This document shows positions 13,384-38,581 of a DNA stretch of 38,581 nt, in pieces. Source of the stretch: Emcibacter nanhaiensis. GTDB taxonomy: Bacteria; Pseudomonadota; Alphaproteobacteria; Sphingomonadales; Emcibacteraceae. Position 1 is the first letter of the stretch, and the number at the start of each line of letters is the position of its first letter. A model generated the notes under the pieces. That model did no database searches. It was not told the origin of the DNA and saw nothing but the letters and a program-made list of their open reading frames with translations. The position numbers were made by a program, and so were the translations under genes. The stretch is taken from the NCBI RefSeq assembly GCF_006385175.1, contig NZ_VFIY01000003.1, forward strand, positions 1 to 38,581, read 5' to 3'.

Positions 13384-13452
13384 CTGGCTAAGCTTTTGCA
13401 GGGCGGCCAGGCGTTTCTGGTCATCAGAATTATATCCAAAAGGAGTGAATAA

Positions 13453-14202: not shown

Positions 14203-14227
14203 CAGGACGTAACTTTTAGTCTAACAG

Positions 14228-14255: not shown

Positions 14256-14270
14256 AGGGAGAGAAATCAG

Positions 14271-16319: not shown

Positions 16320-17699
16320 TCAGTCGGCCGCCAGATATTTATCCACCTCCCGGTGGAATTTGGCGATACAGGCTTCCTCAAGCGCCAGGGTCATATGCTT
16401 CAGTCCCTTGTTGCGCAGGCCTCGCTGTTGCTGCGGCGCCTGGTCGTAGTCCTGCTGCAGGACCAGGAAGTAAGGGTAGCTGCCCTGTTCCTCGACCACG
16501 GTCAGTTCGGTTCGCGCTGCTTCCCGTTGCTCCTCCGGCAGCCAGGCATAGCGCACGACGTGCCAGATGCTTTTGTTGGGATCGCCGCTCTGATGCGGGA
16601 CCGGCACTACGGCCGTTGCTTCGCCCGCCCGCATGGACAGGAAGAAGTTCGGGAAGAACAGCCAGCCATAATGGTCGGTCATCTGATGATCGCTCAGGCC
16701 GCTCACATCCAGGCCTTTCTCGGACAGGGTCTCGCGGGTGGCTTTCTGCAGCAGCGTATGGCCGCTGACGCCTTCCGGGAATTCGATCTTGCCGTCGGCG
16801 TTAGTATAGTCTGCCACCAGCTTATCGAAGTGAGGCATGACTTCCTTGGCGCCGTGATAGGTGGCGGGCAGGCGGGTCCTGATGCCGTCCACTTCCTGTT
16901 CCGGGGAGAAGCCGTCCGTTTTTACTTCAAAGGGGGAAACAACCAGATGGTGATCGCCGATAAAGTTGTAGCGCTCCTTGCTGGGATCAAGCCGGATCAC
17001 ATCCCCCATCTGCGGATGGATGCCCTGGATGTGATAGCCTTCCTGGAAGGCGTCGACGACGACTTTCCAGTTGCAGTCCAGTTCCTCCTGAACATTCAGG
17101 CCGACCGGGATCATGTCTTCCAGATGATAGGGGGCGAGGTACTCGGCGGCTTCCTCACCCAGATACTCCATCAGCGGTTTGGCGTCCGGATCCGGGTTCA
17201 GGAAAATAAAGCCGGCAAAGGTGTCGACAGAGACCTTGGGCAGCCCAAGGTTATCCTTGTCGATCGGCCCCACCAGATCCGGCCGGGCGACACTGCGCAG
17301 GTTGCCTTCCAGGTTGAAGGACCATCTGTGGAAGGGGCATACCAGGGCGTTGGCATGGCCTTTTGCGCCGCTACAGACCGGGTTGCCGCGATGCGGGCAG
17401 GCGTTGACGAAGCCGCGGATTTTGTCATCCTTGCCCTTGACGACAATGAAGGACTGGTCGGCGAATTTATATTCCTTCCAGTCACCGGTTTCCGGCAGTT
17501 CATCCACACGTCCGGCGACCTGCCAGGTGCGCATCCAGATCTTGTCAATCTCCTGTTCGTGAATCTCACGGGAGGAATAGCGGTCGGTGCTCACCTGCAT
17601 TGTTGCCTGATCGTAGCCCAGGTCTGACAATCCCAGGCTTTTTTCAAAGCGTTTATCATCTGCGTAGACGCCATTGGCCTTTGCTTCAGCTGACGACAT
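16320..17699 (-). CDS. Rieske oxygenase alpha subunit (oxygenase 3)
   Basis: A 459-residue Rieske oxygenase. The cluster ligands are Cys101, His103, Cys121 and His124 (CPHRGNP ... CPFHRW). The iron site is in VVVDAFQEGYHIQGIH with His223 and His228 and an acidic residue upstream. It is the longest of the three alpha subunits here and has the choline-monooxygenase-like layout often found in terminal oxygenases of two-component systems. AAAGGAG precedes its ATG. It lies on the opposite strand from the long operon and has no reductase beside it, so it must borrow the reductase or ferredoxin from elsewhere. The substrate is unknown. Confidence 0.88.
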   Translation of the reverse strand: MSSAEAKANGVYADDKRFEKSLGLSDLGYDQATMQVSTDRYSSREIHEQEIDKIWMRTWQVAGRVDELPETGDWKEYKFADQSFIVVKGKDDKIRGFVNACPHRGNPVCSGAKGHANALVCPFHRWSFNLEGNLRSVARPDLVGPIDKDNLGLPKVSVDTFAGFIFLNPDPDAKPLMEYLGEEAAEYLAPYHLEDMIPVGLNVQEELDCNWKVVVDAFQEGYHIQGIHPQMGDVIRLDPSKERYNFIGDHHLVVSPFEVKTDGFSPEQEVDGIRTRLPATYHGAKEVMPHFDKLVADYTNADGKIEFPEGVSGHTLLQKATRETLSEKGLDVSGLSDHQMTDHYGWLFFPNFFLSMRAGEATAVVPVPHQSGDPNKSIWHVVRYAWLPEEQREAARTELTVVEEQGSYPYFLVLQQDYDQAPQQQRGLRNKGLKHMTLALEEACIAKFHREVDKYLAAD

Positions 17700-17956: not shown

Positions 17957-18826
17957 CTACATTAAATCGCCAGTCTGGTTTTCACGTATTTGTTTGCGAA
18001 ATTCTGTTGGCGTTTTGCCGGCAATGCGGCGAAAGGCTGTTGAGAAATAGGCGGGGCTTTTGAAGCCGAGCCGGCTCGACACCTCTTCGCAACTGACGTC
18101 ATTTCGCGCCAGCATGGTTTTCGCGGTACTGATGCGTTCTGAGGAAATATACTTATGAATCTGCCAGCCCGTGGTCGCCTTGAAAGAGCGGGCGAGATGT
18201 TCCTTGCTGATCCCGCAGATGCCGGCAAGATCGCCAAGGCTGGGGTATCCAAGTTCAATGGAAGCCTGAATGCGTTCCTCAATGCGGCGCAATTGCCAGG
18301 AGGCAAGCGGCTGGGACTCGCCTTTTCCTGAGCCCTTTTTTTCCAGTTTTCGGACATACCGGGCAAGTTCCACCAGCATCATGTTGGTTACGGACTCAAT
18401 GAGGAGTTCCCGGCCGTAACCTGGTTTTTCCAGTTCGGCATGGATCTCCTGCATAAGAACTTCGATCCGCTGGTTCCTGAGAGCTGCCAGGGACGTGGCA
18501 TATCGCTCCCATTTGTCCTTCGAAATTTGTGTCACGCGTTCCACATAGTCGGCATCATAAAAGCAGTAAAGGACACGCAGGTCGGATTCCAGCGGATAGA
18601 GGAAAACAGAACGTCCGGCCGGGAGAAAGCCTACTGAACGGACCCGCGGCAACATTTCAGGTGTTGCCAGATTTCCGATACGCAGCGGGGAGTGGTTGTC
18701 AGACAACCGTTGACACAGTGAGTATCCGGGAAAATGCGGGCGTTCACCGATACCTTGCCAGCTGATGGTGGCAAGGCGCACCGTTACATAGGGGAGAATG
18801 ACTTCTTTTTCTAGGTTCTGTTTCAT
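17957..18826 (-). CDS. AraC/XylS-family transcriptional regulator
   Basis: A 289-residue regulator. The C-terminal part from about residue 185 holds two helix-turn-helix motifs: LGDLAGICGISKEHLARSFKATTGW and the conserved second half ending SRLGFKSPAYFSTAFRRIAGKTPTEFRKQ. The N-terminal 170 residues are a divergent effector domain (RVRSVGFLPAGRSVFLYP) with no clear cupin motif visible. AraC proteins usually activate catabolic promoters from sites next to or overlapping the -35 element, exactly where the shared box sits in this window. Its own promoter at 18933-18976 carries that box, which suggests autoregulation. No good ribosome site precedes the ATG. The gene lies 257 bp upstream of the oxygenase 3 gene. 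Confidence 0.9.
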   Translation of the reverse strand: MKQNLEKEVILPYVTVRLATISWQGIGERPHFPGYSLCQRLSDNHSPLRIGNLATPEMLPRVRSVGFLPAGRSVFLYPLESDLRVLYCFYDADYVERVTQISKDKWERYATSLAALRNQRIEVLMQEIHAELEKPGYGRELLIESVTNMMLVELARYVRKLEKKGSGKGESQPLASWQLRRIEERIQASIELGYPSLGDLAGICGISKEHLARSFKATTGWQIHKYISSERISTAKTMLARNDVSCEEVSSRLGFKSPAYFSTAFRRIAGKTPTEFRKQIRENQTGDLM

Positions 18827-18932: not shown

Positions 18933-18976
18933 ATTATAGAATATGCGACCGCCGTGTAAAATCGATGGTAGTTATC
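18933..18976 (-). promoter_or_regulatory. Promoter of the AraC-family gene with shared box (site F)
   Basis: Read on the - strand: GATAA (18976-18972), seven bases, CGAT, then TTTACA (18960-18955), a 16-bp spacer and TATAAT (18938-18933). The box-to--35 distance is the same 11 bp as at the other sites. The -10 is consensus and the spacer is shorter than the usual 18, so basal activity is probably higher here, as would suit a regulator gene. The leader is about 100 nt. Confidence 0.7.
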
Positions 18977-19100: not shown

Positions 19101-19146
19101 AATAAATAGTAACGATTTTACATTCTTTATTACCACCAGCTATCTT
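19101..19146 (+). promoter_or_regulatory. Promoter with shared box (site D), Old Yellow Enzyme and TonB receptor unit
   Basis: AATAA at 19101-19105, seven bases, CGAT, TTTACA at 19117-19122, an 18-bp spacer and TATCTT at 19141-19146. The spacing is identical to sites A, B, C and E. The leader to ATG 19292 is about 140 nt. Confidence 0.68.
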
Positions 19147-19291: not shown

Positions 19292-20476
19292 ATGTCTTCA
19301 TCTTCCCGCATTGAAGCCCTTCTTGAGTCTGTAACTATCCGGGGCACAAAATTTCCCAATCGCGTGATCATGTCGCCGATGACTCGTGGCGCCTCTCCGA
19401 ATGGCGTGCCGAGTGCGGAGGTCGCCGCCTATTATGCGCGCCGGGCCGCGGGTGGCGTTGGGGCTATTTTTACTGAATCCGTCTTCATTGAAGACAAGGG
19501 CACCATGGGAAAATTCGATCTCGAAGGTGGTGATGACAAGAAAACCGGCTGGCCGGTCATGTTCGGCGAGGCCCCGCTGGAGGGCTGGCGCCGGGTGGTC
19601 GATGAAGTCCATGCCGCCGGGGGGCTGATCTTTCCGCAGCTGATGCATCTTGGCATTCAGCGCTCGCCGGCCAAGGGCCAGAGCTGGTCCGATATTCATA
19701 TTTCCAGCCCGAGCGGAATCTGGGGGACACCGGAGCAGATCGCTGCGCTGCCTGAGGAAAAGGCGGCGGTGATGAACTGTCCCGGGAAAGCCATGACCGA
19801 GGACGAAATCTGGGCGGTGATCAAGGCCTTCGGCGATGCCGCAGCCAACGCCAAGTCGGTTGGCTTTGACGGTATTGCCCTGCATGGCGGCCACGGCTAT
19901 CTGATTGATAATTTTATGCGGGAAGAGACCAACCAGCGGACCGATGACTGGGGCGGCGACCACGTAGGGCGCATGCGTTTTGCCGTGGAAGTGGTCAAAG
20001 CCGTTCGCAAGGCGGTTGGTGACGACACGCTGATTTCCTTCCGTTTCTCGCAATGGACCCACCATGATGTGGATGCCATGCTGACCAAGAATTCCGATGA
20101 GCTTAAGGGCATCCTGGACCTGCTGGCAGAAGCAGGGGTCGATATTTTTGAGGCAAGCGCCCGTGATTTCCGTGATCCGGTGTATGAAGGATCGGATCTC
20201 AATATTTCCGGATGGACGAAAAAACTGATCGATAAGCCGGTCGTGATGGTCGGCGGGACCGGCGTGCGCCGGGAACGCCATGAGTCAGCTCTGACACCGC
20301 CGCAGGTTGTTGATAATGTTGACGAAATTATGGAGCGATATGCGGCTGGCGAATTCGATTTCCTCGCCATTGGTCGTGCTCTTCTGAATGATCCTAACTG
20401 GCTGCAGCGTGCGAGCGCGGGCGAGCCGTTCCTGGATTTCAATCCGGCATGCCTGAAAATGGGGTACGTCGAGTAA
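19292..20476 (+). CDS. NADH:flavin oxidoreductase / Old Yellow Enzyme family
   Basis: A 394-residue single-domain (beta/alpha)8 FMN enzyme. VIMSPMTRGAS (26-34) binds FMN, and the active-site block ALHGGHGYLIDNF has His198, His201 and Tyr203. The C-terminal FLAIGRALLNDPNWL closes the barrel. The 4Fe-4S cysteines and second domain of 2,4-dienoyl-CoA reductases are missing, so this is an OYE-type ene-reductase that reduces activated C=C bonds with NAD(P)H. It is the first gene after a shared-box promoter and precedes the outer-membrane receptor, so it may act early on an imported unsaturated ketone or ring. AGGAAAGAG precedes the ATG. Confidence 0.88.
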   Translation: MSSSSRIEALLESVTIRGTKFPNRVIMSPMTRGASPNGVPSAEVAAYYARRAAGGVGAIFTESVFIEDKGTMGKFDLEGGDDKKTGWPVMFGEAPLEGWRRVVDEVHAAGGLIFPQLMHLGIQRSPAKGQSWSDIHISSPSGIWGTPEQIAALPEEKAAVMNCPGKAMTEDEIWAVIKAFGDAAANAKSVGFDGIALHGGHGYLIDNFMREETNQRTDDWGGDHVGRMRFAVEVVKAVRKAVGDDTLISFRFSQWTHHDVDAMLTKNSDELKGILDLLAEAGVDIFEASARDFRDPVYEGSDLNISGWTKKLIDKPVVMVGGTGVRRERHESALTPPQVVDNVDEIMERYAAGEFDFLAIGRALLNDPNWLQRASAGEPFLDFNPACLKMGYVE

Positions 20477-20627: not shown

Positions 20628-23102
20628 ATGACTAGAAAACTTTCCACGGGGCTACTTACAGTAGCGATCGCAGCAGGGTCGGCAACATGGGTCGCACCTG
20701 CATTCGCAAATGATACGATGGTGCTCGAAGAGATCACCGTTACAGCGCGTAAGCGTGAAGAATCCATTATGAAAGTGCCGGTGACCACCTCCGTGCTCGG
20801 TGGTGAAACGCTGGACCAGTATGCCATTAGCGATGTTGCCGGTGTCGCCGACAAAACACCGGGCCTGAACTTCAGTAACGGTCCGACCGCATCCGGCGTG
20901 CTGGTGTCCATGCGCGGTATCGGTACCGGCACCAACAACCCGGCCATTGACCAGTCTATTGCCTTTGTGATTGACGGCATGCAGTTTACCCAGGGTCTCG
21001 CCTTTGAAATGGCGACGCTGGATATGGCCCAGGTTGAAGTGATGAAAGGCCCGCAGGCGCTGTTTTTCGGCAAGGCGGCCCCGGCCGGCGTGATCTCTGT
21101 CCGGACCGCAGACCCGAGCGATGAGTTCGAAGTGAAACTGCGCACCGGTTATGAGTTTGAGGCTCAGGAACGGATGGGCGAGATCGTGATTTCCGGTCCC
21201 GTTACCGATACCCTCGGCCTGAGGATTGCCGGTCAGTATTCCAAAATGGACGGCTATTTCAAGAATGACGCCGAAGTGGGCAACTCAGCCTTTGGTGCCC
21301 TTGGCGCCGCGCCGGTTGTCTATGACGAGTTTCCGAACCGCGAGCAGGTTCTGGTTCGTGGTACAGCAGTCTGGACGCCGACTGACAATTTCAAAGCCCG
21401 CCTGAAACTGAACTTCTCAGATACGGAAATCCAGGGTTTTGGATCCGAGCCGCAGCTTGTTTCCTGTCCGGAAGGAACGGATACCTTCTTCAGCTTTATT
21501 CCCGGCCTGACTTTCATCGGCGGAGAAACATGTGATGTTGATGAAACCCAAAACCTGATTTACATGGATCCGGATTATTTCCCGGGCATTTACAATGACG
21601 GTATTCCGTTTGCAGACATTCAGCAGTTCTTCGGTTCTCTTGAAATGAGCTATGACATTAATGACGAACTCGGTTTGACATCAGTCACCGGTTTCTATGA
21701 TGTTGATCAGGCCTCCATGTTCAACGGGTCCATTACGACGTCTCTTGGCACCCCGTTCGCCATTCAAGGTAAAATGGACCGCAAGGACTTTACCCAGGAA
21801 CTGCGCCTGACTTCAGATTACGCCGGAGCGTTTAACTTTATGCTGGGCGCCTTCTATCAGAAGGGCGATACGGACTTCCTGTCCAGCCTGCCGGCCAACC
21901 AGGCCTGGCCTGCACTGTTCGCAGCACTTGGTGAAGCAACTCCGTGGCCGCCGGCCCTTGCCTGGGCGGATCATCACATCGATTCCGAAACAATCTCTTT
22001 CTTCGGTCAGGTGTTGTATGAAATCACGCCGGAACTGGAAATCGGCGCCGGTGTGCGCTGGACTGACGAACAGCGCGATCACAGCGTAATGAACAGGCTG
22101 CTGGAGCGGTTCAACCTCGGCCCGGCATTGCCTGTTGACCTGGCGCGTCCGTCACTCAGTTCTTCCAACTGGTCACCTGAACTGTCCATCACCTACACGC
22201 CGACGGATGAGTTGACCATCTATGGTAACTTCAAACGCGCCTACAAGTCCGGTTCCTTTGACGTGGGCGGCGGCGCCAATGACGGTGATGACAAAGCATT
22301 TGACGATGAAATGGTCAGAGGCGGCGAACTTGGTGTGAAGGCCCTGCTGGCGGACGGCGCCCTGATGCTCAATGCTTCCGGTTATTACTATGAGTATGAA
22401 GATATGCAGGTTGAGACACGCATCTTCGATCCGGTGAATGGTACAGTGGCTGTGCGCACAGTTAACGCCGCGTCCTCTGAAATCTACGGTGTCGATGTGG
22501 ATCTGACCTATGCCGTGCCGAATGTCGATGGCTTGACCCTGTATGCTTCTGCAAACTGGAACACAGCGAAATATACAGACTTTGACAATGCCCAGTGTTA
22601 CACCGGCCAGACCCAGGCCCAGGGATGTAATATTGATGTCAATGGTGATGGTATCGGCGACAACCAGGACCTGACCGGCGAGCCGCTGCTGCGCGCTCCG
22701 AAATGGATGGCCAATGCCGGCTTTGACTATATGACCGATGTGTCAAATGATCTGACCCTGAACCTGGCGGGTAACCTGAGTTATTCAGACTCCTATTCGG
22801 CCTCCAGCACCAACTATGCTGATGCCTACCAGGACAGCTACGTCAAGCTGAGCGCCAATGTCGGTCTTAGCAGCAACGAAGGCGGCTGGAGAGTAGAGCT
22901 TATCGGCGACAACCTGACTGACGAATATGTCTATGGTAACTGTGCCCCTGCCGGCTATGCCGACAGCCTGTTGTTCGGTCAGGATGCGGCCTTTGCCGGA
23001 ACCGGTACCGTGATGGGCGGTCCGGGTGGACAGGCAGAAACAGCCTGCTTCACGTCCCGCGGCCGCAGTGTCTGGCTCCGCCTGACCGTAGACATCAACT
23101 AG
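20628..23102 (+). CDS. TonB-dependent outer-membrane receptor
   Basis: An 824-residue receptor. Residues 1-27 are a signal peptide (hydrophobic LLTVAIAAGSATWVA then AFA). The TonB box and start of the plug follow (LEEITVTARKREES, about 33-46), then SVRGIG-type plug strands and a long beta-barrel rich in alternating aromatic strands. The last residues are WLRLTVDIN, so the usual terminal aromatic is missing although the final strand is otherwise normal. It should import the island's substrate or a related ligand across the outer membrane with energy from TonB-ExbBD; no TonB genes are in the window. Its placement among catabolic genes argues for an organic substrate rather than a siderophore. 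GGGAG precedes the ATG. Confidence 0.93.
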   Translation: MTRKLSTGLLTVAIAAGSATWVAPAFANDTMVLEEITVTARKREESIMKVPVTTSVLGGETLDQYAISDVAGVADKTPGLNFSNGPTASGVLVSMRGIGTGTNNPAIDQSIAFVIDGMQFTQGLAFEMATLDMAQVEVMKGPQALFFGKAAPAGVISVRTADPSDEFEVKLRTGYEFEAQERMGEIVISGPVTDTLGLRIAGQYSKMDGYFKNDAEVGNSAFGALGAAPVVYDEFPNREQVLVRGTAVWTPTDNFKARLKLNFSDTEIQGFGSEPQLVSCPEGTDTFFSFIPGLTFIGGETCDVDETQNLIYMDPDYFPGIYNDGIPFADIQQFFGSLEMSYDINDELGLTSVTGFYDVDQASMFNGSITTSLGTPFAIQGKMDRKDFTQELRLTSDYAGAFNFMLGAFYQKGDTDFLSSLPANQAWPALFAALGEATPWPPALAWADHHIDSETISFFGQVLYEITPELEIGAGVRWTDEQRDHSVMNRLLERFNLGPALPVDLARPSLSSSNWSPELSITYTPTDELTIYGNFKRAYKSGSFDVGGGANDGDDKAFDDEMVRGGELGVKALLADGALMLNASGYYYEYEDMQVETRIFDPVNGTVAVRTVNAASSEIYGVDVDLTYAVPNVDGLTLYASANWNTAKYTDFDNAQCYTGQTQAQGCNIDVNGDGIGDNQDLTGEPLLRAPKWMANAGFDYMTDVSNDLTLNLAGNLSYSDSYSASSTNYADAYQDSYVKLSANVGLSSNEGGWRVELIGDNLTDEYVYGNCAPAGYADSLLFGQDAAFAGTGTVMGGPGGQAETACFTSRGRSVWLRLTVDIN

Positions 23103-23144
23103 TCCTACAGAAAATAGCTCCGGTCTGCCGGAGCTGATCTCTGG

Positions 23145-23181
23145 ACGGAAGGCGCGTTTTCCCAGGCGCCTTCCGTTTTTT
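23145..23181 (+). terminator. Intrinsic terminator after the TonB receptor gene
   Basis: ACGGAAGGCGC (23145-23155) pairs perfectly with GCGCCTTCCGT (23166-23176), an 11-bp stem with a 10-nt loop, followed by a run of T's (TTTTTTCTTTT). This is the clearest intrinsic terminator in the window. Confidence 0.92.
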
Positions 23182-23302
23182 CTTTTGGCCGGATTTATGT
23201 CGGTTATGCAGACGTTCAGAGGAGGTAGAAATTCTCTGCGGACAACCCCTGGAAAGGGCAGAAATGCGGGGGTTGTGTCACATAACTCAAGCCGATACAT
23301 CC

Positions 23303-23348
23303 GATAAGGAATAATGATTTTACAATGTTTCCCGGCATCCGATAAGGT
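23303..23348 (+). promoter_or_regulatory. Promoter with shared box (site B), first TauD gene
   Basis: GATAA at 23303-23307, seven bases, TGAT, TTTACA at 23319-23324, an 18-bp spacer and TAAGGT at 23343-23348. CCGATAAG is repeated in the -10 region. The leader to ATG 23486 is about 130 nt. Confidence 0.7.
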
Positions 23349-23485: not shown

Positions 23486-24310
23486 ATGACAGGCGTTCTC
23501 AAGGCCGAAGACATCAAGCCGAAAATCGGATCAAGGATTCTTAACAGCAAGGAAGAGCTGCTGAGCGGTGAGTTTTCCGCCGAGATCAGGGACCTGCTGG
23601 AACAGCGCGGTGTGCTGGTATTCCCGAAGATCAACTTTAACGACGAAGAGCAGCTTGCCTTCACCAGGACACTGGGGACTGTTGCCAAGGAGCGTAGCGG
23701 TGAAGAGGTGTTTCCAATTTCACTGGATCCCAAAGTTTCCTCTGGGGTGGATTATCTGAAAGGCGCCTTTTACTGGCACTTTGACGGTACCATTCAACCG
23801 ATGCCGATCCTGGCGTCCCTGTTGAGCTCCAAGGTGCTGCCGCCGAGCGGAGGCAACACCGAATTCGCCAACTGCTACGCCGCCTACGAAGATCTTCCCG
23901 AGGAAGAGAAAGAGCGGATCAAAGACCTGAAGGTTATGCATTCCACCTGGAACTCTCTGCTCTACTACGAGCCGGAGCCGAACCAGGAAAAGCTCAAGCA
24001 GTGGATTGAACTGGGCGAGAAGGAGCTGCCGCTGGTGTGGACTCATACATCCGGTCGTAAATCCCTGGTGCTGGGCTGTACCGCCCACCATGTTGTTGGC
24101 GTCGATCACAATGAGAGCGCCCTGATCCTCAACGGACTGCGGGAATGGGCGACCAGCGAGCCTTATCACTACAGCCACGAATGGTCAGTGGGCGATATGG
24201 TGATGTGGGACAATACGGGCACCCTTCACCGCGCCATGCCCTATCCGATGGACAGCGGCCGCGAACTGCACCGCACCAAGCTGGCAGGCGAAGAGCCGAT
24301 TGCGGCCTGA
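23486..24310 (+). CDS. TauD/TfdA-family Fe(II)/2-oxoglutarate-dependent dioxygenase (first copy)
   Basis: A 274-residue enzyme with a double-stranded beta-helix core. The metal triad is His98-x-Asp100 (WHFDGT) and His248 (GTLHRAMPY). An arginine at 259 or 263 (GRELHRTKL) should bind 2-oxoglutarate. Relatives hydroxylate or oxidatively cleave ethers, sulfonates or side chains. ATG 23486 is preceded by GGGAG; an upstream in-frame TTG at 23471 is less likely. It is the first gene of a unit that continues into a luciferase-like monooxygenase and an esterase. A paralogue of exactly the same length lies at 36474; hand alignment gives 58 differences in 274 residues (about 79% identity), with all catalytic residues shared. 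Confidence 0.88.
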   Translation: MTGVLKAEDIKPKIGSRILNSKEELLSGEFSAEIRDLLEQRGVLVFPKINFNDEEQLAFTRTLGTVAKERSGEEVFPISLDPKVSSGVDYLKGAFYWHFDGTIQPMPILASLLSSKVLPPSGGNTEFANCYAAYEDLPEEEKERIKDLKVMHSTWNSLLYYEPEPNQEKLKQWIELGEKELPLVWTHTSGRKSLVLGCTAHHVVGVDHNESALILNGLREWATSEPYHYSHEWSVGDMVMWDNTGTLHRAMPYPMDSGRELHRTKLAGEEPIAA

Positions 24311-24358
24311 TCGCATACGCCGAATTTATACGAATATTTTAAAAGCAGGAGCAAGAAT

Positions 24359-25396
24359 ATGGTTAAGTCATGGGCTTTCGAGTTTTTTCCCAATCCCCAT
24401 GCTCATGGAGGCGAAGGTGCCGCCGAGATCGATCCGAAACTGGAGCAGGATTACTGGAACTTTTACATGGACCTTTGGGTAAGCGCCGAAGCTCTGGGAT
24501 TTGATGGTCTGCTGTTGAGTGAGCATCATTTCGGCGGCGGCTACAGCCCGTCTCCGAACATCCTGTTGCCGGCGATCGCCCAGCGGACCAAGAGCCTCCG
24601 TCTCGGCGTGATGGGCAATGTGCTGCCCTATCACACCCCCTGGCGTCTGGTGGAGGAGTTCGCCATGCTCGACAACCTGACCGGCGGTCGTCTGGAAATC
24701 GGTACCTCAGCCGGTATTCCCGCCGAACTGGCCATGGTTGGTATGTCTCCGGCTGAAGGTCGCGCCCGCTACGAAGAATCCATCCAGGTCATTGACCAGG
24801 CTCTGAAAAACGGGGTGATCAACCACAAAGGTGAATATTGGAATATTGAAAACCTGCCGGTCGTTCCGCCGTTCGCACAGAAGCCCGAGCCGCCGAAATG
24901 GACCACTGTGATCAGCGTCGAGTCCGCCCGCAAAGCGGCAAAACGCGGTTCCAAAATTGCCACCGGCTTTATCTCTACTGACAAGGTGAAGGAAGTCTTT
25001 GATAACTACAAGGAAGCGGCTGCTGAAGCCGGCCTTGAAGCCGGCCCGGATCAGCTGGGTCTGCGCCGTCAGGTCATCATTGATGCGACTTCGGTGCCGA
25101 GTGAAAAAGCCGAGGGTTACAAAGACGCCTTTGTCGATATGGTTGCCGCCTTTGACAAGCGCGTGATTGCCCCGGGCCGCAAGGCGCTGGACTCCGATGG
25201 TGCCCACGGATACGCTTTCGGTGACGACGAGTTTATCAGCGGTTCACCGAAGGAAGTAGCCGAGCAGATCAAGGACCAGTGCGAGCGCAGTGGTGCAGGT
25301 CACTTCCAGGTGGTTTTTGCCGGTCATCAGTCTCTGGAAGAGCTGGCCATGTCCTGGAAACTGTATGGTGAGGAAGTTATTCCTCTGCTTAAATAA
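24359..25396 (+). CDS. LLM-class flavin-dependent oxidoreductase (bacterial luciferase-like monooxygenase)
   Basis: A 345-residue (beta/alpha)8 flavoprotein. The family marks are SEHHFGGGYSPSPNILLPAIAQRT (about 59-82), the NVLPYHTPWRLVEEFAMLDNLTGGRLEIG region near 98-126 and a SAGIPAEL phosphate-binding turn. Such enzymes use reduced FMN and O2 to hydroxylate or to insert oxygen next to a carbonyl. An alpha/beta hydrolase follows 86 bp downstream, a pairing that fits Baeyer-Villiger oxidation and then ester or lactone opening. Reduced flavin could come from the flavin reductase encoded at 29861-30370. AGGAG lies upstream of ATG. The substrate is unknown. Confidence 0.86.
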   Translation: MVKSWAFEFFPNPHAHGGEGAAEIDPKLEQDYWNFYMDLWVSAEALGFDGLLLSEHHFGGGYSPSPNILLPAIAQRTKSLRLGVMGNVLPYHTPWRLVEEFAMLDNLTGGRLEIGTSAGIPAELAMVGMSPAEGRARYEESIQVIDQALKNGVINHKGEYWNIENLPVVPPFAQKPEPPKWTTVISVESARKAAKRGSKIATGFISTDKVKEVFDNYKEAAAEAGLEAGPDQLGLRRQVIIDATSVPSEKAEGYKDAFVDMVAAFDKRVIAPGRKALDSDGAHGYAFGDDEFISGSPKEVAEQIKDQCERSGAGHFQVVFAGHQSLEELAMSWKLYGEEVIPLLK

Positions 25397-25482
25397 GCCG
25401 CTGGGCCAGATTGTAAACTCCAGCGTCGACATTCCCTGTGATTGTCGGCGCTGGTTATTCAACATTAGACGAAGGAAAGCGC

Positions 25483-26337
25483 ATGTCTGTTGAAAAAGAT
25501 GTTGTCTATCACTCCGTGAACGGTCGTGACCTCAAGGTTGACCTCTACAAGCCCGAGGGCGGCAGTGTGCCGACCAAAACGGCTGTGGTGCTGATCCACG
25601 GCGGGGGCTGGATTTTGGGTGAAAAGGGCATGATGACGCCGCTGGCAAGCCAGTTTGCCGCCCAGGGGTTCCTTGCTGTTGCGGTGGAATATCGCCTGGT
25701 TCGCGAAGCGGCCTGGCCGGCCCAGCTCGAGGACGTGACAACAGCCGTGCGCTGGGTTGCCGATAACGCCACAGACCTCGGTATTGATGCGGACCGTATT
25801 GTTGTTGCCGGCGCCTCCGCCGGAGGGCACCTTGCGCTGATGGCAGCGGCTGAGCTCAACAAAGAGTCCAAGGTTGCGGCAGTGCTGTCACTCTTCTCCG
25901 CCAGCGAACTGACGGTTTCCGAAGTGCCGGAAAAAGGCAAGTTCAATGCGGCCATGCTGCTTGGCTCGGATGCCAGTGACGATGTGGTCAAGGCGGCCAG
26001 CCCTTACTATCAGGTCAGCGAGGGCTTCCCGCCGACCTTTGTCCTGCACGGCACGAAAGACTGGCTGATCGACCCGGTGGCCAGCCTGCGCCTGTATGAA
26101 AAGCTCAATGACCTGGGTGTCACGGCCGAACTGCATATGGTCGCCAATGCCATCCACGAGTTCATCGAGGAACCGGGCATGACCGGCCCGATGGTCTCTG
26201 AAATCGCCCTGTTCCTGAACCGGGTGGTTATCGATCCGGCAAAATGGGCAGCGGAAACAGAGGAGCACAACCTGTTCGCCAAGGGACCGGAAGCATTGCA
26301 GGCCCTGATGGCCCAGATGCTGGAGCAGACTCAATAG
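25483..26337 (+). CDS. Alpha/beta hydrolase (HSL/BD-FAE-like esterase)
   Basis: A 284-residue hydrolase of the hormone-sensitive-lipase-like group. The oxyanion motif HGGGW is at 39-43, the nucleophile elbow GASAGG has Ser112, and the acid and base are probably Asp197 (or Asp193) in TKDWLIDP and His225 in NAIHEF. It should hydrolyse an ester, lactone or enol ester. Its position after the LLM monooxygenase fits opening of a Baeyer-Villiger product; hydrolysis of a meta-cleavage product is possible too, though that family usually lacks the HGGGW motif. ATG 25483 is preceded by GAAGGAAAG; an upstream ATG at 25438 is not. The ligA-like gene starts 33 bp later. Confidence 0.87.
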   Translation: MSVEKDVVYHSVNGRDLKVDLYKPEGGSVPTKTAVVLIHGGGWILGEKGMMTPLASQFAAQGFLAVAVEYRLVREAAWPAQLEDVTTAVRWVADNATDLGIDADRIVVAGASAGGHLALMAAAELNKESKVAAVLSLFSASELTVSEVPEKGKFNAAMLLGSDASDDVVKAASPYYQVSEGFPPTFVLHGTKDWLIDPVASLRLYEKLNDLGVTAELHMVANAIHEFIEEPGMTGPMVSEIALFLNRVVIDPAKWAAETEEHNLFAKGPEALQALMAQMLEQTQ

Positions 26338-26370: not shown

Positions 26371-26634
26371 ATGAGTGTTAATGCGTTGGAAGCGGCTTTG
26401 TGGCAGTTGTATCTTCATCCTGGGGATGCGGACAGCTTCCGCTCGGATGCAGCGTCCTATGCGGCGGATTACCGTGTGACGGACAAGGAGCGGGAGCTTC
26501 TGGTCTCGGTCGATGTGATGGGTCTGATTGACCACGGGGTCAACAGCCTTCTGGTGCTGATGGCGTTCCAGACCATTTACGGCCCGGAACGGCTGCATGA
26601 TTATTTTGACATCGTCAACGCGCCGGCGGCTTAA
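26371..26634 (+). CDS. LigA-like small subunit of extradiol dioxygenase (second pair, R2 copy 1)
   Basis: An 87-residue LigA-fold protein (NALEAALWQLYLHP, YRVTDKERELL, a SLLVLMAFQ helix near 60). It should form the cap subunit of the LigB-like enzyme 56 bp downstream. GGGAGG precedes ATG. It follows the hydrolase by 33 bp and is probably cotranscribed from promoter B. The protein is identical to the one at 37426 and about 45% identical by eye to the one at 4225. Confidence 0.83.
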   Translation: MSVNALEAALWQLYLHPGDADSFRSDAASYAADYRVTDKERELLVSVDVMGLIDHGVNSLLVLMAFQTIYGPERLHDYFDIVNAPAA

Positions 26635-26690: not shown

Positions 26691-27524
26691 ATGGCAGAGT
26701 TGGTAGGTGGTTTCCTGATGCCGCATGTGCCGTCGATCCCGACGGGCGGCTATGGTGAAGAACCCTGGCAGAAAGAGGCTTCGGACAAGGCCTTTGCGCA
26801 TATTTCCAAACGGGTTGAAGAGCTTGAGGCGGATACGGTGATTATCGTCGGCGACGATCACTATGAGAATTTCGGTCCGCGCTGCATCCCCAACTGCCTG
26901 ATTGCGACCGGCGATGTGGGGGTTTCCGCCCATGCCCAGACCCTGGGCCTGACCGGCGATGCGATCCCCAACAACGAGGAACTGGCGCAGCATATCCTGG
27001 AGACGGGGTATCGGGAAGGTGTCGACTGGGCCTTTGCCAAGTCGCTTGATGTGGACCATTCGGTGGCCATTCCCTATCACATGTCGCTGAAACGGCTGGG
27101 CGTCAAGGCGATCCCGGTTTACCTGAACTGTGTGGTGGCGCCGCTGATCCGGAGCCGCCGGGCCTTTGAGATCGGCCAGAGCATCGGCCGGGCGGTCGAG
27201 AGCTGGGACGGCGTCGAGCGGGTTGTGGTGTTCGGCACCGGCGGCATCAGCCACTGGGTCGGCAGTCCGGGCATGGGTTTTGTCAATGAGGAGTTTGACC
27301 GCAAGGTGCTGGCGATGGTGGAAGCGGGCGACATTGACGGCCTGATCGCCCTGCCGGACGAGGTGATCCTGGAGAGCGCCGGCAACGGCGCGCTGGAGAT
27401 CAAGAACTGGCTCTGCGCCATGGGCGCCCTGCCGGCCGGCACCACGGCCGAGACCATCGCCTATGAGCCGATCCCGACCTGGATTACCGGCTGCGGCTTC
27501 GCCGAACTGAAACCCGCCGCTTGA
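26691..27524 (+). CDS. LigB-like catalytic subunit of extradiol dioxygenase (second pair, R2 copy 1)
   Basis: A 277-residue LigB-superfamily enzyme. His12 (MPHVPS), His57 (GDDHYEN), His189 (GISHWVG) and Glu237 (ALEIKNW) reproduce the metal and acid-base sites of LigB. Ring cleavage of a catechol-type substrate is expected. Its ribosome site (AGAGAGA) is modest. The first-pair LigB at 4520 shares the framework, but the 15-30 and 75-92 segments differ strongly, likely changing the substrate pocket. An identical protein is encoded at 37746. Confidence 0.88.
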   Translation: MAELVGGFLMPHVPSIPTGGYGEEPWQKEASDKAFAHISKRVEELEADTVIIVGDDHYENFGPRCIPNCLIATGDVGVSAHAQTLGLTGDAIPNNEELAQHILETGYREGVDWAFAKSLDVDHSVAIPYHMSLKRLGVKAIPVYLNCVVAPLIRSRRAFEIGQSIGRAVESWDGVERVVVFGTGGISHWVGSPGMGFVNEEFDRKVLAMVEAGDIDGLIALPDEVILESAGNGALEIKNWLCAMGALPAGTTAETIAYEPIPTWITGCGFAELKPAA

Positions 27525-27659
27525 GCCTGGTCTCTGACCAAAGGCTAAATAAGGGGAGAGCAGAAGTGTGCAGAAGATGCCTGGCGACAGGCGTGACAAG
27601 GTCGAATTGTATTCGTCTCCTGGCACATGGCTTATTGAACGAATAACAGGAGCTTGCGT

Positions 27660-28751
27660 ATGTCGCATGACTTTTTATCGACTCCTCTGGAAATTATCGA
27701 GGAGGCCCGCAACGGCCGGATGTTCATCCTTGTCGATGATGAGGATCGGGAGAATGAAGGCGACCTGGTGATCCCCGGGCAAATGGTGACCCCCGATGCC
27801 ATTAATTTCATGGCCAAACACGGGCGCGGCCTGATTTGCCTGGCGATGACCAAAAAACGGGCCGACCAGCTCGGCCTCAATCCGATGGAGCGCAAAAACA
27901 GTTCGTCTTTCGAGACCGCGTTCACGGTCTCGATCGAGGCCAGCAGCGGGGTGACCACCGGTATTTCGGCGGCAGACCGGGCCCGTACCATTTCTGTCGC
28001 CATTGACGCCGCCAACGGTCCGGAAACAATCGCCACCCCGGGACATGTCTTCCCGCTGGTGGCGCGTGAGGGCGGGGTTTTGGTCCGTGCCGGACACACG
28101 GAAGCTGCCGTTGATGTTTCCCGGCTTGCCGGCCTCAATCCGTCAGGCGTGATTTGTGAAATCATGAATGATGACGGCACCATGGCGCGGATGGATGACC
28201 TGGTGGCTTTTGCCCAGTTCCATAATATGAAAATCGGCGCCATCCGGGACCTGATTGCCTATCGGCGCCTCAATGACCATCATGTGGAACGGGTTTCCAG
28301 CCGGCCGTTTCAATCCGACTATGGTGGAGACTGGACGCTGAGTGTTTATCGCAACACCATCGACGGCAGCGAGACCCCGGTGTTGCAAAAGGGTGAAATC
28401 AGCCCGGACCAGCCCACCCTGGTCAGGATGCACGGGACTTCCATTTTTACCGACCTGCTGGGACAGCCGGGGCCGCGCAAGCGCCTGCTTCAGCGGGCCA
28501 TGGCAGAAATCGGCAAGGAGGGGTCCGGTGTCATCGTTATTTTTACCTCCATTAGCCAGAGTAGCCTGCAGCAGGCCATTGAATCCGAATCTGAAGATAT
28601 GCAGATCCGCGGCTACGGGATCGGCGCCCAGATCCTGGCCGACCTTGGGATCAGTGATATGGTGCTGCTGACCAACAGCCATCACACCATGGTGGGACTG
28701 GAAGGCTATGGTCTCTCCGTCGTGGAGGAGCGGCAGATTCCTGACGCCTGA
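27660..28751 (+). CDS. ribB: RibBX-type 3,4-dihydroxy-2-butanone-4-phosphate synthase with degenerate GTP cyclohydrolase II domain
   Basis: A 363-residue fusion. Residues 1-200 are a complete DHBP synthase (RibB), with [10 protein letters not shown] (26-35), GHTEA (145-149) and the [13 protein letters not shown] block. It makes the four-carbon unit of riboflavin from ribulose 5-phosphate. Residues about 205-363 keep the GTP cyclohydrolase II fold, but the zinc cysteines are gone: the place of the RVHSEC...CDCG motif reads [19 protein letters not shown]. The second domain is therefore probably inactive, as in RibBX proteins known from alphaproteobacteria. AGGAG lies 7 bases before ATG 27660. 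Placed among several flavin-dependent enzymes, it could raise flavin supply during catabolism. Confidence 0.87.
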
Positions 28752-28909: not shown

Positions 28910-29857
28910 TTGCATTTCAAGGGTCTTGATCTAAATCTGATTGTTATTCTCGACGCCTTGCTGGAAGAGCAAAGCGTCACCAAGGCAGCGGAACGGGTGC
29001 ATGTTTCCCAGCCTGCCGTCAGTGCCGCCCTGGCCAAGTTGCGCCAGCACACCGGCGATGAAATCCTGGAAAAAGTCGGGCGGGAATTCGTGCTCACTCC
29101 CCGGGCCCAGGCGATGGTCAAGCCGGTCAAGGAATTGCTGATCCAGATTGAGTCCACCATCCTCAGCGGCGCCGAATTCGACCCAACCGTGACCGAAAGA
29201 ACTTTCCGGATCGCCATGTCTTCCTATGCGGCGGAAGTGTTGATGGCAGGGCTGGTGGAAAAGATTGCCAACTCCTATCCCGGCATTTCCTGCATCATGG
29301 AGGAAATCAGCTCCGAAACCCTGTCCAGGGTGGAGACCGGGAACATTGACTGCGCGATTACCTTCCAGCAGACCAAGCTGATCAATCCCAGTTCGTCCAT
29401 CGAGGAATTCAGTTACACCCATGCCTTTTCTGATGAGTGGGTCCTGATCGCCGCTATCGATAACGACCAGGTAACGGAACAGCTGACCTACGAGGAATTC
29501 TGCAGCCTGCCCTATATCGAAACCCGGCTGGCCCGGATCCTCTCAAGTTTTGTGGAAAGCACCCTGGACCATCAGAGCCTTCGGCCCAGGCCGACCCTGA
29601 GTGTGCCCAGCTTCGAACTGGCCATCACCTGCGTCATGAACTCCGACTGTGTTGCTGTGGTTCCGGCGCTGCTGATTAACGACCATCTGCGCAAGTATGT
29701 GAAGACGATTAAACCGCCGTTTGACATCCCGGCGATTGGGGAGTTTCTGGTTTGGCATTCCCGTAGTGATGCGGATCCGGGACATACCTGGTTCCGCGAA
29801 CTGGTCGTTGAAGTGGCCCGGGAATCCCAGAAAAAGGCGAAGCCCCGCTATTGCTGA
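28910..29857 (+). CDS. LysR-family transcriptional regulator, NahR/NodD-like
   Basis: A 315-residue LysR regulator. The N-terminal winged helix (1-66; GLDLNLIVILDALLEEQSVTKAAERVHVSQPAVSAAL) has the wording typical of the NahR/NodD/LinR branch, whose members sense aromatic ligands. The effector domain covers about 90-300. The start is TTG at 28910, eight bases after AAGGGG, and the family's first residues MHFKGLDLNL match this start. It converges with the flavin reductase gene with only 3 bp between stops. The target promoter is not obvious; the upstream gap (28783-28909) may hold its own operator. Confidence 0.9.
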   Translation: MHFKGLDLNLIVILDALLEEQSVTKAAERVHVSQPAVSAALAKLRQHTGDEILEKVGREFVLTPRAQAMVKPVKELLIQIESTILSGAEFDPTVTERTFRIAMSSYAAEVLMAGLVEKIANSYPGISCIMEEISSETLSRVETGNIDCAITFQQTKLINPSSSIEEFSYTHAFSDEWVLIAAIDNDQVTEQLTYEEFCSLPYIETRLARILSSFVESTLDHQSLRPRPTLSVPSFELAITCVMNSDCVAVVPALLINDHLRKYVKTIKPPFDIPAIGEFLVWHSRSDADPGHTWFRELVVEVARESQKKAKPRYC

Positions 29858-29860: not shown

Positions 29861-30370
29861 TCACCTCTGGCCGTTCGGCTCGAGGGGCAGGGCTTTCATA
29901 TATTTTCCGTCACCGAAAAGCAGCGGGCTGCGGTCGCTGCTGATGATATGCTCGACCTGGCCAATGAAAATGGCATGGTCGCCGCCTTCGTGGGTGGCAA
30001 CCTTGCGGCATTCCAGTACTGCGCAGCAGCCGTCGATAACCGGGACGCCGCCCAGGCCCCGGGAGGTGGCGATACTATTGAACTTGTCCTCGCCGGGGCG
30101 GGCAAAGCGCTGCGAGACGTCGACCTGGTCTTCAGCAAGAATATTGATGACAAAGCGGTCCGCCTCGCAATAGACCGGATGGCTTTGGGAGGTCAGCGCC
30201 TGGTTCCACAGGACCAGCGGCGGTTCCAGCGAGACCGAGGTAAAGCTATTGGCAGTCACGCCGCAGGCCGTGCCATCCCGTGCAACGCTGGTTACAACCG
30301 TCACGCCGGTGTAGAAGCGCCCAAGGACATTTCTGAGTTCCCGGCCGTCAAAATCTTTGGTTGTTGTCAT
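29861..30370 (-). CDS. Flavin reductase (HpaC/HsaB-like, FMN-binding split barrel)
   Basis: A 169-residue flavin:NAD(P)H reductase. The family runs are visible: FYTGVTVVTS, GVTANSFTSVSLEPPLVLW (37-55), FVINILAEDQ and HAIFIGQVEHI. It supplies reduced FMN or FAD to a partner monooxygenase. The best partner is the acyl-CoA-dehydrogenase-fold monooxygenase at 32925, expressed divergently from the same regulatory region; the LLM enzyme at 24359 is another. It lies 21 bp downstream of the ThDP gene in the same operon, with GGAG before ATG. Confidence 0.9.
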   Translation of the reverse strand: MTTTKDFDGRELRNVLGRFYTGVTVVTSVARDGTACGVTANSFTSVSLEPPLVLWNQALTSQSHPVYCEADRFVINILAEDQVDVSQRFARPGEDKFNSIATSRGLGGVPVIDGCCAVLECRKVATHEGGDHAIFIGQVEHIISSDRSPLLFGDGKYMKALPLEPNGQR

Positions 30371-30391: not shown

Positions 30392-32074
30392 TTATTTCTT
30401 TGCGTTATGAGCCGGGCCTTCGTGCATGAAAGCGGCAACCACGGACGCATTGATTTTACAATCGAGGAAAATCGGCCCGTCAGGATTCTCCAGCATGGGG
30501 GCCAGAGCCCTGAGTTCGTCGAGTGTGCGCACGGTCGCCGTTTCAAATCCGAACGATTCCGCCACCGGGGCGAAGTCGATATCCGGGAATTGTGACAACT
30601 GGACCGGCATGCCCTGGCCCTGCAGGAAATGCAACTCGGCGCCATAGGCACAGTCGTTCATCAGAATGATAACGAGGGGGATATATTCGCGGGCGACCGT
30701 TTCCAGTTCACCCATGTTCATCAGGAAGCTGCCGTCGCCCATCAGCAGAACGGTGGTCCGCTCCGGAGTGCCGGCGGCAAATCCCATGGCGGTGCCGAAG
30801 CCCATGCCGATGGAGGCGGTGTCGCCGGTATGTTTGAAATGGGACGGGCCGGGGCAGGAAAGATAGGGGACGGTTCCCAGCATATTGCCGGAATCCCAGA
30901 CCAGGTTGCGATCCTCCGGCAACAGCTTGTCAAGCTCGAGGGCGAGGGAGCGGCCGTCCATGGTGCGCGGCGTGCTCATTTCCTCGTAGTCGTCTTTCAT
31001 GTCGAAGTCGGCAAGCCAGCGGGCATTTTCCTCGCACCGCATTTCCATTTCTGATTTGTCACGTGAAGGAATGGTATTAATTAACTGTTCTGAAACGAGT
31101 TTTGCATCGCCAACCAGGCCGATATCTGCGTCGAACCAGCGCCCGATACTGGGGCGGGACCGGTCAATATGGATGACCGGCAGGCCCTCCGGAATGGCGG
31201 TGGCGAAGCTGGTTGTCTGCTGGTTGAGGCTGGCGCCGATGGCGATGACGCAGTCGGCCTGCTCGATCAGGCGACGGCCGCCGACGTTGGAGAAGGACCC
31301 GAGGATGCCGCAGTTAAAGGGATGGCCGCGGAACATGTCTTTGGCCTTCATGGTCGTGACCAGGGCGGCGCCGATATGGTCGGCGAGGCGGATAATCTCC
31401 TCCCGCGCGCCGGCGGCATAGGCGCCGATGCCGGCGATGATCAGCGGCTTGCGGCTTTTTTCAATCAGCGAAACGGCCACTTTAAGGGCGCTGTCGCGGG
31501 CCGGCTGGGGTGTATAGGGAACCGGCTCAATGGTTCCCGGTGCCGTGGCGACCGGATCTACCTGGGCCTGCTGTACGTTGGAAGGCAACAGATAGGCAAC
31601 GGCGCCGCTGTGCGCGGCGGCGGCGGCCTGTACGAAGGTGCGGCGCGCGGTGGTGGCATCATTGGCCCGGAAGGTTTTGATCCCGGCCGCATGGAGCAGG
31701 GCCATGGTGTCCAGGCTCTTGCGGTCCGGCCCCACGGAATTGGGCGCTTTATCCACATTGGGGGCATCGCCATAGATCATCAGAACCGGTGAACCGGTAC
31801 GGTTGGCATAGTTGGCGCCGTTCATGCTGTTGGTGGTGCCGGGGCCGCGCCCGATGATGACAATGGCCAGGCGTCCTGTCGCTGCCGCATAGCCTTCCGC
31901 CATGGAGATTGCATTGTTTTCGTGGCGGGCGCCATAGAAACGTACGCCGACGGAATCGATCATGGCAATAAGTTGGGCAGTATCGTCACTCATCAGTCCG
32001 AAGACGCATTCGACACCAAGCTCTTTGATATCTGTAGCAAGAGCCTCATAGACCGCCACCCTGTTATCCTGCAT
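30392..32074 (-). CDS. Thiamine-diphosphate-dependent decarboxylase/lyase (acetolactate synthase-like, benzoylformate decarboxylase group)
   Basis: A 560-residue ThDP enzyme with the three-domain pyruvate-oxidase layout. Glu52 (ARHENNAISMAEGYA) activates the cofactor. The ThDP-Mg motif runs from GDG (446-448) to N473-D474 (LMNDCAYG). It is catalytic-subunit sized, with no regulatory subunit nearby, so a role in branched-chain amino acid synthesis is unlikely. Decarboxylation of an aromatic 2-oxo acid or carboligation is more likely in this setting. AAGGAAGG precedes the ATG. It leads the - strand operon that continues into the flavin reductase, from shared-box promoter E. Confidence 0.86.
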   Translation of the reverse strand: MQDNRVAVYEALATDIKELGVECVFGLMSDDTAQLIAMIDSVGVRFYGARHENNAISMAEGYAAATGRLAIVIIGRGPGTTNSMNGANYANRTGSPVLMIYGDAPNVDKAPNSVGPDRKSLDTMALLHAAGIKTFRANDATTARRTFVQAAAAAHSGAVAYLLPSNVQQAQVDPVATAPGTIEPVPYTPQPARDSALKVAVSLIEKSRKPLIIAGIGAYAAGAREEIIRLADHIGAALVTTMKAKDMFRGHPFNCGILGSFSNVGGRRLIEQADCVIAIGASLNQQTTSFATAIPEGLPVIHIDRSRPSIGRWFDADIGLVGDAKLVSEQLINTIPSRDKSEMEMRCEENARWLADFDMKDDYEEMSTPRTMDGRSLALELDKLLPEDRNLVWDSGNMLGTVPYLSCPGPSHFKHTGDTASIGMGFGTAMGFAAGTPERTTVLLMGDGSFLMNMGELETVAREYIPLVIILMNDCAYGAELHFLQGQGMPVQLSQFPDIDFAPVAESFGFETATVRTLDELRALAPMLENPDGPIFLDCKINASVVAAFMHEGPAHNAKK

Positions 32075-32180: not shown

Positions 32181-32226
32181 AAAGTAAAGGAAGGGACGAA
32201 GTCTTGTAAAATCGATCTTAATTATT
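32181..32226 (-). promoter_or_regulatory. Promoter with shared box (site E), ThDP and flavin reductase operon
   Basis: On the - strand: AATAA (32226-32222), seven bases, CGAT, TTTACA (32210-32205), an 18-bp spacer and TACTTT (32186-32181). The TTAAGATCGATTTTACAAG core is the same as in promoter C on the opposite strand. The leader is about 100 nt. Confidence 0.7.
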
Positions 32227-32338: not shown

Positions 32339-32384
32339 GATAATTAAGATCGATTTTACAAGGCTTCCGGCCATCCGATACCCT
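32339..32384 (+). promoter_or_regulatory. Promoter with shared box (site C), VOC and monooxygenase operon
   Basis: GATAA at 32339-32343, seven bases, CGAT, TTTACA at 32355-32360, an 18-bp spacer and TACCCT at 32379-32384. The spacer end CCATCCGATA resembles GCATCCGATA in promoter B. The leader to ATG 32497 is about 105 nt. Confidence 0.72.
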
Positions 32385-32496: not shown

Positions 32497-32928
32497 ATGG
32501 CACTCAAAATTGTTGGGATTCATCACCACGGTGTGCGGGTGGGTGATAATGGCGAGTCCCTGGATGACGTTTTTGATTTCTATACCAACGTCCTGGGAAT
32601 GAACCATGACAAGAGTCGCCCCAATATTATCCCGGGCTGGTGGATGAACACGGGTGGTTCCGGGCAAATCCATCTTATGGGAGGGGAACTGCCGTCGCCC
32701 GTAGCCAAGGGGCCCGGACAGGATCCGGCAACGCCTCATGTGGCGCTGGCCGTGGAAAATGTCATCGAAGCCAGAGAGGAACTGGACCGGATGGGGGTTG
32801 AGTATTACACCGCAAATGCAGGGGAACTGCAGCAGGTGTTCGTCCACGACCCCTGCGGCAATATGATTGAGCTACACCAGTTCGATAAATGCAGATGTAC
32901 TTCAGCTAATCGGGGAGAGAGCGAATGA
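32497..32928 (+). CDS. Single-domain VOC-superfamily protein (glyoxalase/extradiol-like)
   Basis: A 143-residue vicinal-oxygen-chelate protein. It starts KIVGIHHHGVRV, where His10 or His11 is the first possible metal ligand, has PHVALAV in the middle and NMIELHQF at the end, where the Glu is the usual last ligand. One-domain VOC proteins include glyoxalases, epimerases and small dioxygenases. GAGGAG precedes ATG. The stop overlaps the start of the monooxygenase gene by four bases (ATGA), so the two proteins are coupled and probably act on consecutive intermediates. Confidence 0.78.
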   Translation: MALKIVGIHHHGVRVGDNGESLDDVFDFYTNVLGMNHDKSRPNIIPGWWMNTGGSGQIHLMGGELPSPVAKGPGQDPATPHVALAVENVIEAREELDRMGVEYYTANAGELQQVFVHDPCGNMIELHQFDKCRCTSANRGESE

Positions 32929-38579: not shown

Positions 38580-38581
38580 GC

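Follow-up and report, generated by a model that had tools for sequence, protein, structure and literature searches.

A luciferase-like monooxygenase and an esterase gene beside class III extradiol dioxygenase genes in a probable aromatic catabolic island of Emcibacter nanhaiensis

The upper pathway of carbaryl degradation (mcb) in Pseudomonas sp. C5pp and XWY-1 combines a small protein and a LigB-type dioxygenase with an HCCA isomerase and a DHDPS-type hydratase-aldolase; in the accessible part of one report, mcbB of strain C5pp is named as a class-II extradiol dioxygenase for 1,2-dihydroxynaphthalene, and the XWY-1 arrangement is similar (PMC6723655). Other clusters for polycyclic aromatic hydrocarbons are described in the available portions of two further sources (PMC11705938, PMC5591006). 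Luciferase-like monooxygenases (LLMs) include RslO1 (7bip) and MsnO8 from biosynthetic polyketide pathways of Streptomyces, of which the available text proposes the former, and describes the latter, as epoxide-forming (PMC8093152). In the ipp cluster of Rhodococcus sp. D-6, which acts on 2-isopropylphenol, a RibB gene lies between the genes for an HsaA-like oxygenase and a flavin reductase and all are induced together; the substrate is a simple phenol and the accessible parts of the account include no LLM (PMC12442392). Here, we analyse a 38,581-base stretch of Emcibacter nanhaiensis DNA (the window), comprising the entire contig C3 (NZ_VFIY01000003.1) of a 3.96-Mb draft genome, with a focus on three consecutive genes encoding a TauD-type oxygenase, an LLM and an esterase. 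To our knowledge, luciferase-type enzymes have been little studied in aerobic aromatic catabolism, and an abstract-level search, chiefly of non-subscription literature, found no published description of the gene combination reported here.

The three genes stand at the head of a same-strand run of six:

23486..24310, forward strand: TauD/TfdA-family Fe(II)/2-oxoglutarate oxygenase (TauD), 274 aa (PF02668; alternative TTG start possible at 23471)
24359..25396, forward strand: LLM, bacterial-luciferase-like flavin monooxygenase, 345 aa (PF00296; AlphaFold2 model)
25483..26337, forward strand: HSL/BD-FAE-type alpha/beta hydrolase, probable esterase, 284 aa (profiles and motifs; alternative GTG start possible at 25438)
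26371..26634, forward strand: LigA-like small subunit, 87 aa (PF07746, 27.8 bits, cut-off 25.3)
26691..27524, forward strand: LigB class III extradiol dioxygenase, 277 aa (PF02900, 129.8 bits, cut-off 26.3, E = 1.3e-37)
27654..28751, forward strand: RibBA paralogue, DHBP synthase plus RibA-like domain (PF00926, E = 1.3e-83; start at 27654 or 27660)

Profile searches also recovered the neighbours that a first-pass annotation of the window had named, an OYE and a TonB receptor upstream and a flavin reductase nearby:

19292..20476, forward strand: OYE-type oxidoreductase (PF00724, E = 7.9e-57)
20628..23102, forward strand: TonB-dependent receptor (PF00593, PF07715)
29861..30370, reverse strand: flavin reductase, candidate supplier of FMNH2 (PF01613, E = 1.8e-41)

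We consider it reasonably probable that the run is an operon belonging to a group of jointly regulated units, probably under AraC control, and that these units lie within a catabolic island of some 50 kb for the aerobic degradation of a substituted multi-ring aromatic compound. Import of the substrate by the island's own TonB receptor is plausible. TauD would then hydroxylate or O-dealkylate a substituent; the LLM, using FMNH2 from the neighbouring flavin reductase, would oxygenate a ring or ketone intermediate; the esterase would open the ester thus made, or one present already; LigAB would cleave a fused-ring catechol; and the RibBA paralogue would raise the supply of riboflavin precursor for the flavin-using oxygenases. 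Substrates considered as candidates were methoxylated polyphenols, flavonoids, steroids and diterpenoids.

All three reading frames are intact, with strong family matches and key motifs in place, and the enzyme classes and catabolic role first assigned to them are supported. TauD scores 183.6 bits against PF02668 (cut-off 27; E = 8.7e-54), and its metal triad, H98-F-D100 plus H248, aligns with 5bke, which is also its best match among PDB sequences (7.3e-34). As this closest solved relative is annotated as a 2,4-dichlorophenoxyacetate dioxygenase, hydroxylation or O-dealkylation is likely. TauD homologues of 60–64% identity occur on plasmids; in the three neighbourhoods read from five such records there was no LLM nearby, and the Rieske genes close by shared <30% identity with those of the window. 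The esterase scores best against BD-FAE (PF20434; 154.4 bits, cut-off 26.8; E = 4e-45), also matches Abhydrolase_3 (PF07859; 113.8 bits, cut-off 25; E = 1.2e-32) and carries HGGG at 39, GASAG at 110 and IHEF at 224, as expected of an HSL/BD-FAE member.

The LLM scores 151.8 bits against PF00296 (cut-off 27.9; E = 3.6e-44) and its modelled fold agrees with the family. The AlphaFold2 model (pLDDT 82.2) was built on an alignment of 21 sequences, consisting of the window protein and 20 of 80 loci from a scan of genome contigs (26–38% identity, treated as distant LLM proteins and used for the alignment only); E55-H56-H57 is invariant across all 21. RslO1 is the top solved match by both sequence and Foldseek, at an identity of only 22–25%, and the model aligns with it at Z 32.4 (313 aligned, root-mean-square deviation 2.4), tied with luciferase and 2i7g; against 3,6-diketocamphane monooxygenase (5aec) Z is 28.6. 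MsnO8 (4us5) also matches by sequence, and the score against the curated MsnO8 subfamily, TIGR03558, is 88.0 bits where 166.95 is required. The fold is compatible with type II Baeyer-Villiger monooxygenases, yet it does not settle the reaction, and the epoxide chemistry of RslO1 and MsnO8 makes Baeyer-Villiger oxidation only one option. The initial proposal of oxygen insertion beside a carbonyl followed by ester opening is plausible in outline, but its first step has a competitor.

That competitor concerns the LLM step only: an epoxidation or hydroxylation of the ring like that of RslO1 and MsnO8, with the esterase an independent deacylase acting on a pre-existing ester. We regard it as possible, if somewhat improbable. 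The rank of RslO1 among the LLM matches, given its proposed epoxide formation in the available text (PMC8093152), speaks for it, as does the esterase's preference for the BD-FAE profile; however, the LLM and esterase genes are adjacent and in the same order in G1054, a genome of the same order, and are separated by 1.7 kb containing a TetR gene in Paraburkholderia sprentiae, while a second E. nanhaiensis LLM, on contig C10, adjoins a different alpha/beta hydrolase. This repeated proximity of LLM and hydrolase favours sequential action, and the pairing suggested in the first-pass annotation is borne out by linkage in G1054, in P. sprentiae and on a plasmid island of Novosphingobium pentaromativorans US6-1.

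Evidence for an aromatic substrate comes from the genes that follow. Both subunit profiles place LigAB among the class III extradiol dioxygenases, and models for protocatechuate 4,5-dioxygenase fall short (20.9 of 161 bits for subunit alpha; 100.1 of 837 bits for the alpha/beta model). LigB shares 49.8% identity with a LigB-type protein, mcbB by our own reading, on plasmid pXWY of Pseudomonas sp. XWY-1, where genes for an HCCA isomerase, an aldolase-family protein and carbaryl hydrolase accompany it; unlike the window, that 21-kb stretch has no annotated TauD, LLM, RibBA, OYE or TonB receptor. The left part of the window holds a comparable set:

2146..15737, forward strand: naphthalene-type module with ferredoxin reductase, DHDPS-type aldolase, LigA, LigB, HCCA isomerase-like protein and two Rieske alpha-beta pairs, together with GntR, two SDRs, GMC, ferredoxin and aldehyde dehydrogenase

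The Rieske alpha subunit at 6023 is about 45% identical to proteins annotated as NdoB, and by gene content a 1,2-dihydroxynaphthalene-type pathway set (LigB, HCCA isomerase, hydratase-aldolase and naphthalene-type Rieske oxygenase) is present in one cluster. A carbaryl-type LigB with matching isomerase, aldolase and Rieske genes gives the island the look of fused-ring aromatic catabolism plus tailoring enzymes.

The first-pass annotation had proposed degradation of an alicyclic or side-chain portion of a large imported molecule in addition to attack on an aromatic ring. No feature points specifically to an alicyclic or terpenoid target, and type II Baeyer-Villiger attack on such a portion of a large molecule is, in our judgement, unlikely: the fold matches do include 3,6-diketocamphane monooxygenase and the OYE gene bears the same upstream element as the TauD operon, but the diketocamphane match is weaker than those to RslO1 and luciferase, and ring-hydroxylating and ring-cleaving enzymes dominate the island. 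With LigA-LigB next in line and a naphthalene-type upper pathway encoded nearby, we favour a target within an aromatic ring system over an alicyclic or terpenoid one. Sulfur scavenging by a taurine/alkylsulfate dioxygenase and an alkanesulfonate monooxygenase is highly improbable, for TauD and the LLM share superfamilies with those enzymes but score far under the equivalog cut-offs (92.3 of 313 bits for taurine dioxygenase, NF007104; 46.6 of 518.2 bits for alkanesulfonate monooxygenase), no sulfonate transporter occurs among the family-assigned window genes and the neighbours are ring-cleavage genes.

Past 26337 the run continues with LigA (gap of 33 nt), LigB (56 nt) and RibBA (about 135 nt); a LysR gene begins 158 nt after RibBA, with a stem-loop in between. 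The three-gene unit first drawn to end at 26337 therefore keeps its members but not its boundary. Upstream lies a terminator:

23142..23190, forward strand: intrinsic terminator after the TonB receptor gene (stem then T run)

This structure (-23.7 kcal/mol, z -4.1, 0 of 200 shuffles equally stable) falls within the 383-nt gap between the TonB receptor and TauD genes, so the unit TauD-LLM-esterase-LigA-LigB-RibBA probably has its own promoter region. These genes probably form a six-gene operon, the three studied genes first, and would be transcribed together. The promoter once thought to be shared with the OYE-TonB pair is thus not shared in the literal sense, as gap and terminator part the two units; what they have in common is an operator-like element. 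This 22-bp element, RATAA-N8-GATTTTACA, emerged from a comparison of upstream regions and has seven exact sites in the window:

5..26, forward strand: before the first VOC-CMD genes
18955..18976, reverse strand: upstream of AraC, overlapping a TTTACA-16-TATAAT promoter-like site
19101..19122, forward strand: upstream of OYE-TonB
23303..23324, forward strand: element of the TauD operon
32205..32226, reverse strand: upstream of the TPP enzyme
32339..32360, forward strand: upstream of VOC-ACAD
34330..34351, forward strand: before the second VOC copy

Shuffled sequences gave a mean of 0.01 sites, with none of 100 holding >1; because these upstream regions were themselves the source of the pattern, the figure measures rarity and is not an independent test. 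Two outward-facing elements sit in an inverted repeat with 53-nt arms (32184–32381) between the divergent TPP and VOC-ACAD genes. Genome-wide there are eight exact sites, the eighth in a copy of a 1133-bp repeat at the end of contig C8, plus four one-mismatch sites elsewhere (two for a backward control). G1054 has one exact and two one-mismatch sites (control 0), two of them in its island, upstream of OYE and TonB, and one on contig C23; in US6-1 no site was found genome-wide (control 2). A matrix made from the window sites gave a weak match just upstream of the VOC-LLM operon of G1054 (15.5 bits) and another at C1:140517 (12.3 bits), and as unrelated matches in the window (12.8 bits) and on C4 (15.4 bits) are as high, it proves nothing by itself. 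Two regulators are encoded near the operon:

17957..18826, reverse strand: AraC-family regulator (PF12833)
28910..29857, forward strand: LysR-family regulator (PF03466, PF00126; 50% homologue at C1:175346 in G1054)

The AraC protein is the best candidate for the reader of the operator: a 53% orthologue adjoins the island in G1054, and a search of US6-1 at E<=1e-10 gave none.

The RibBA paralogue is an extra copy, perhaps for flavin supply. GTP cyclohydrolase II has a cysteine zinc site; in the window protein, cysteines occur only at 60 and 166 of 363 residues, and the RibA-like domain, having none, lacks the site that a bifunctional RibBA would need. The genome carries three DHBP synthase genes, on C4, in the window and on C10. 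By our own reading, the C4 gene belongs to a ribD-ribE-ribBA operon, beside open reading frames (ORFs) for RibD and riboflavin synthase; the C10 copy adjoins a ferredoxin-like ORF some 10–15 kb from the second LLM/LigAB cluster. This cluster (C10, about 189–213 kb) contains a TonB receptor (51%), flavin reductase, alpha/beta hydrolase, LLM, aldolase, an ACAD-type oxygenase (31%), LigA, LigB and an HCCA isomerase-like gene, with RibBA nearby.

The island as a whole is conserved in G1054. All 37 window genes counted were matched over at least half their length in C1:100–179 kb, 35 of them at >=40% identity and inside one 48-kb stretch (C1:128.7–176.3 kb); the two below 40% encode the flavin reductase (37%) and the SDR at 35464 (24%). 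The count includes both VOC and both LigB copies, each pair matching the same G1054 gene, and leaves out the second LigA copy. G1054 has the contiguous order VOC-LLM-esterase-LigA-LigB-RibBA-CMD, and its counterparts of the left-module genes run collinear with those of the window but inverted, starting with ferredoxin reductase and ending with aldehyde dehydrogenase. The G+C content of each island lies near that of other DNA of its own host (0.563 versus 0.556–0.578; 0.629 versus 0.632) and so gives no sign of recent transfer between them. Fewer genes are shared with the C10 cluster (10/37 matched, 7/37 at >=40%) or with plasmid pLA3 of US6-1 (478–560 kb: 23/37 matched, 10/37 at >=40%). Likenesses to the latter (about 478–546 kb) extend to the LLM (55%), esterase (59%), LigB (60–62%), GMC (56%), a Rieske alpha-beta pair (57/52%), OYE (45%) and several aldolases (38–52%); it differs in having no RibBA in the stretch read, in its order LigA-LigB-VOC-GMC-LLM and in the sulfatases and GH3 nearby. 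Beside the US6-1 LLM (518.8–529.1 kb), four genes are annotated as sulfatase-type and one as GH3, a hint of sulfated or glycosylated aromatic substrates in that strain, and its chromosome carries, at about 2.5228–2.5295 Mb, LigA-LigB, a Rieske pair and an LLM gene in two pieces, perhaps disrupted.

In overlapping genome samples, LLM relatives at E<=1e-50 were confined to the protein itself in the class (1/385), to itself and genome G716 in the phylum (2/398), to itself and G1054 in the order (2/396) and to G1054 and G1147, judged from coordinates to be US6-1, in the genus of G1054 (2/195); at E<=1e-30 another sample yielded 3/147, namely itself and two of 29–37% identity. With LLM relatives in 2/396 sampled genomes of the order, the gene set is rare.

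Several observations weigh against the operon and pathway proposed here. TauD is not adjacent to the LLM in G1054, where a VOC gene precedes the LLM and TauD genes lie elsewhere in the cluster, or in US6-1, and to judge from these neighbourhoods it is a movable member outside the conserved core. The LLM and esterase of US6-1 are 14 kb apart, within one plasmid island. G716 carries a 46% LLM relative next to an FMN reductase and a LysR (32% identical to that of the window); a homology search there gave no esterase, and the stretches read contain no further window gene. In the 86-nt gap between the LLM and esterase genes of the window, a long hairpin (-29.2 kcal/mol, flanks included; z -1.9; 7/200 shuffles as stable; no obvious T run) might limit read-through. 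Neither the left module (2146–15737) nor the C10 cluster has an exact operator-like site; the last letter of the pattern was widened to A or C after the G1054 sites had been seen, and the matrix gives those sites 11.6–15.7 bits versus 30.8–35.4 bits in the window. An IclR gene on C8 is likewise conserved (42%) and could be the regulator instead. LigB is related to protocatechuate and gallate dioxygenases too and, with the RibA-like half of the RibBA paralogue free of cysteine, only its RibB half could add precursor.

The remaining features of the window include two exact duplications, both carrying ring-cleavage-type genes, and these repeats fall at the contig ends. Positions 1–1133 equal 34326–35458 (1133 bp, containing a two-domain VOC gene), and 26371–27526 equal 37426–38581 (1156 bp, beginning with the start codon of LigA and running 2 nt beyond the LigB stop); LigA and LigB are also 100% identical at C4:1–1151.

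125..1150, forward strand: two-domain VOC protein, first copy (PF00903, 25.9 bits, cut-off 20.6)
16320..17699, reverse strand: Rieske oxygenase alpha subunit (PF00355, PF00848; 62% in G1054)
30392..32074, reverse strand: thiamine-pyrophosphate (TPP) enzyme (PF00205, PF02775, PF02776)
32497..32928, forward strand: small VOC-family protein (PF00903)
32925..34118, forward strand: HsaA-like flavin monooxygenase of acyl-CoA dehydrogenase (ACAD) fold (NF045629, 324.5 bits, under its 450 cut-off)
34450..35463, forward strand: two-domain VOC protein, second copy, extradiol-like by our own reading (repeat identity)
36474..37298, forward strand: second TauD (PF02668, E = 5.1e-57; 216/274 residues the same as in the first)
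37426..38581, forward strand: second LigA-LigB copy, identical to 26371–27526

The G1054 cluster also holds homologues of genes from the end of C8 (aldehyde dehydrogenase, 80%; aldolase-like, 75%; OCD-like, 70%) and of a membrane protein gene from the start of C4 (80%), which, together with the end repeats, support the contig order C8(reversed)-C3-C4. ORFs in G1054, G716, C8, C4 and C10 were called with greedy and codon-score scripts and probably include some shadow ORFs; the OCD-like, C8 DHDPS-like, C4 rib operon and IclR genes were named by inspection of their translations.

Tentatively, and as a doubtful proposition, we suggest that the locus encodes a pathway not yet described, which would act on a multi-ring aromatic natural product; the FMNH2-dependent LLM and the esterase would cut a C-C bond by oxygen insertion, in one operon with fused-ring extradiol cleavage and a private riboflavin-precursor gene, and within an AraC-operator regulon. 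What began as a guess about three genes has become a defined system with a 22-bp element, a candidate regulator and an island conserved across two families within a single order. Two LLM/LigAB clusters of this genome have RibB paralogues inside or close to them, which, together with the parallel in Rhodococcus, suggests that a dedicated flavin supply may recur in flavin-dependent degradation.

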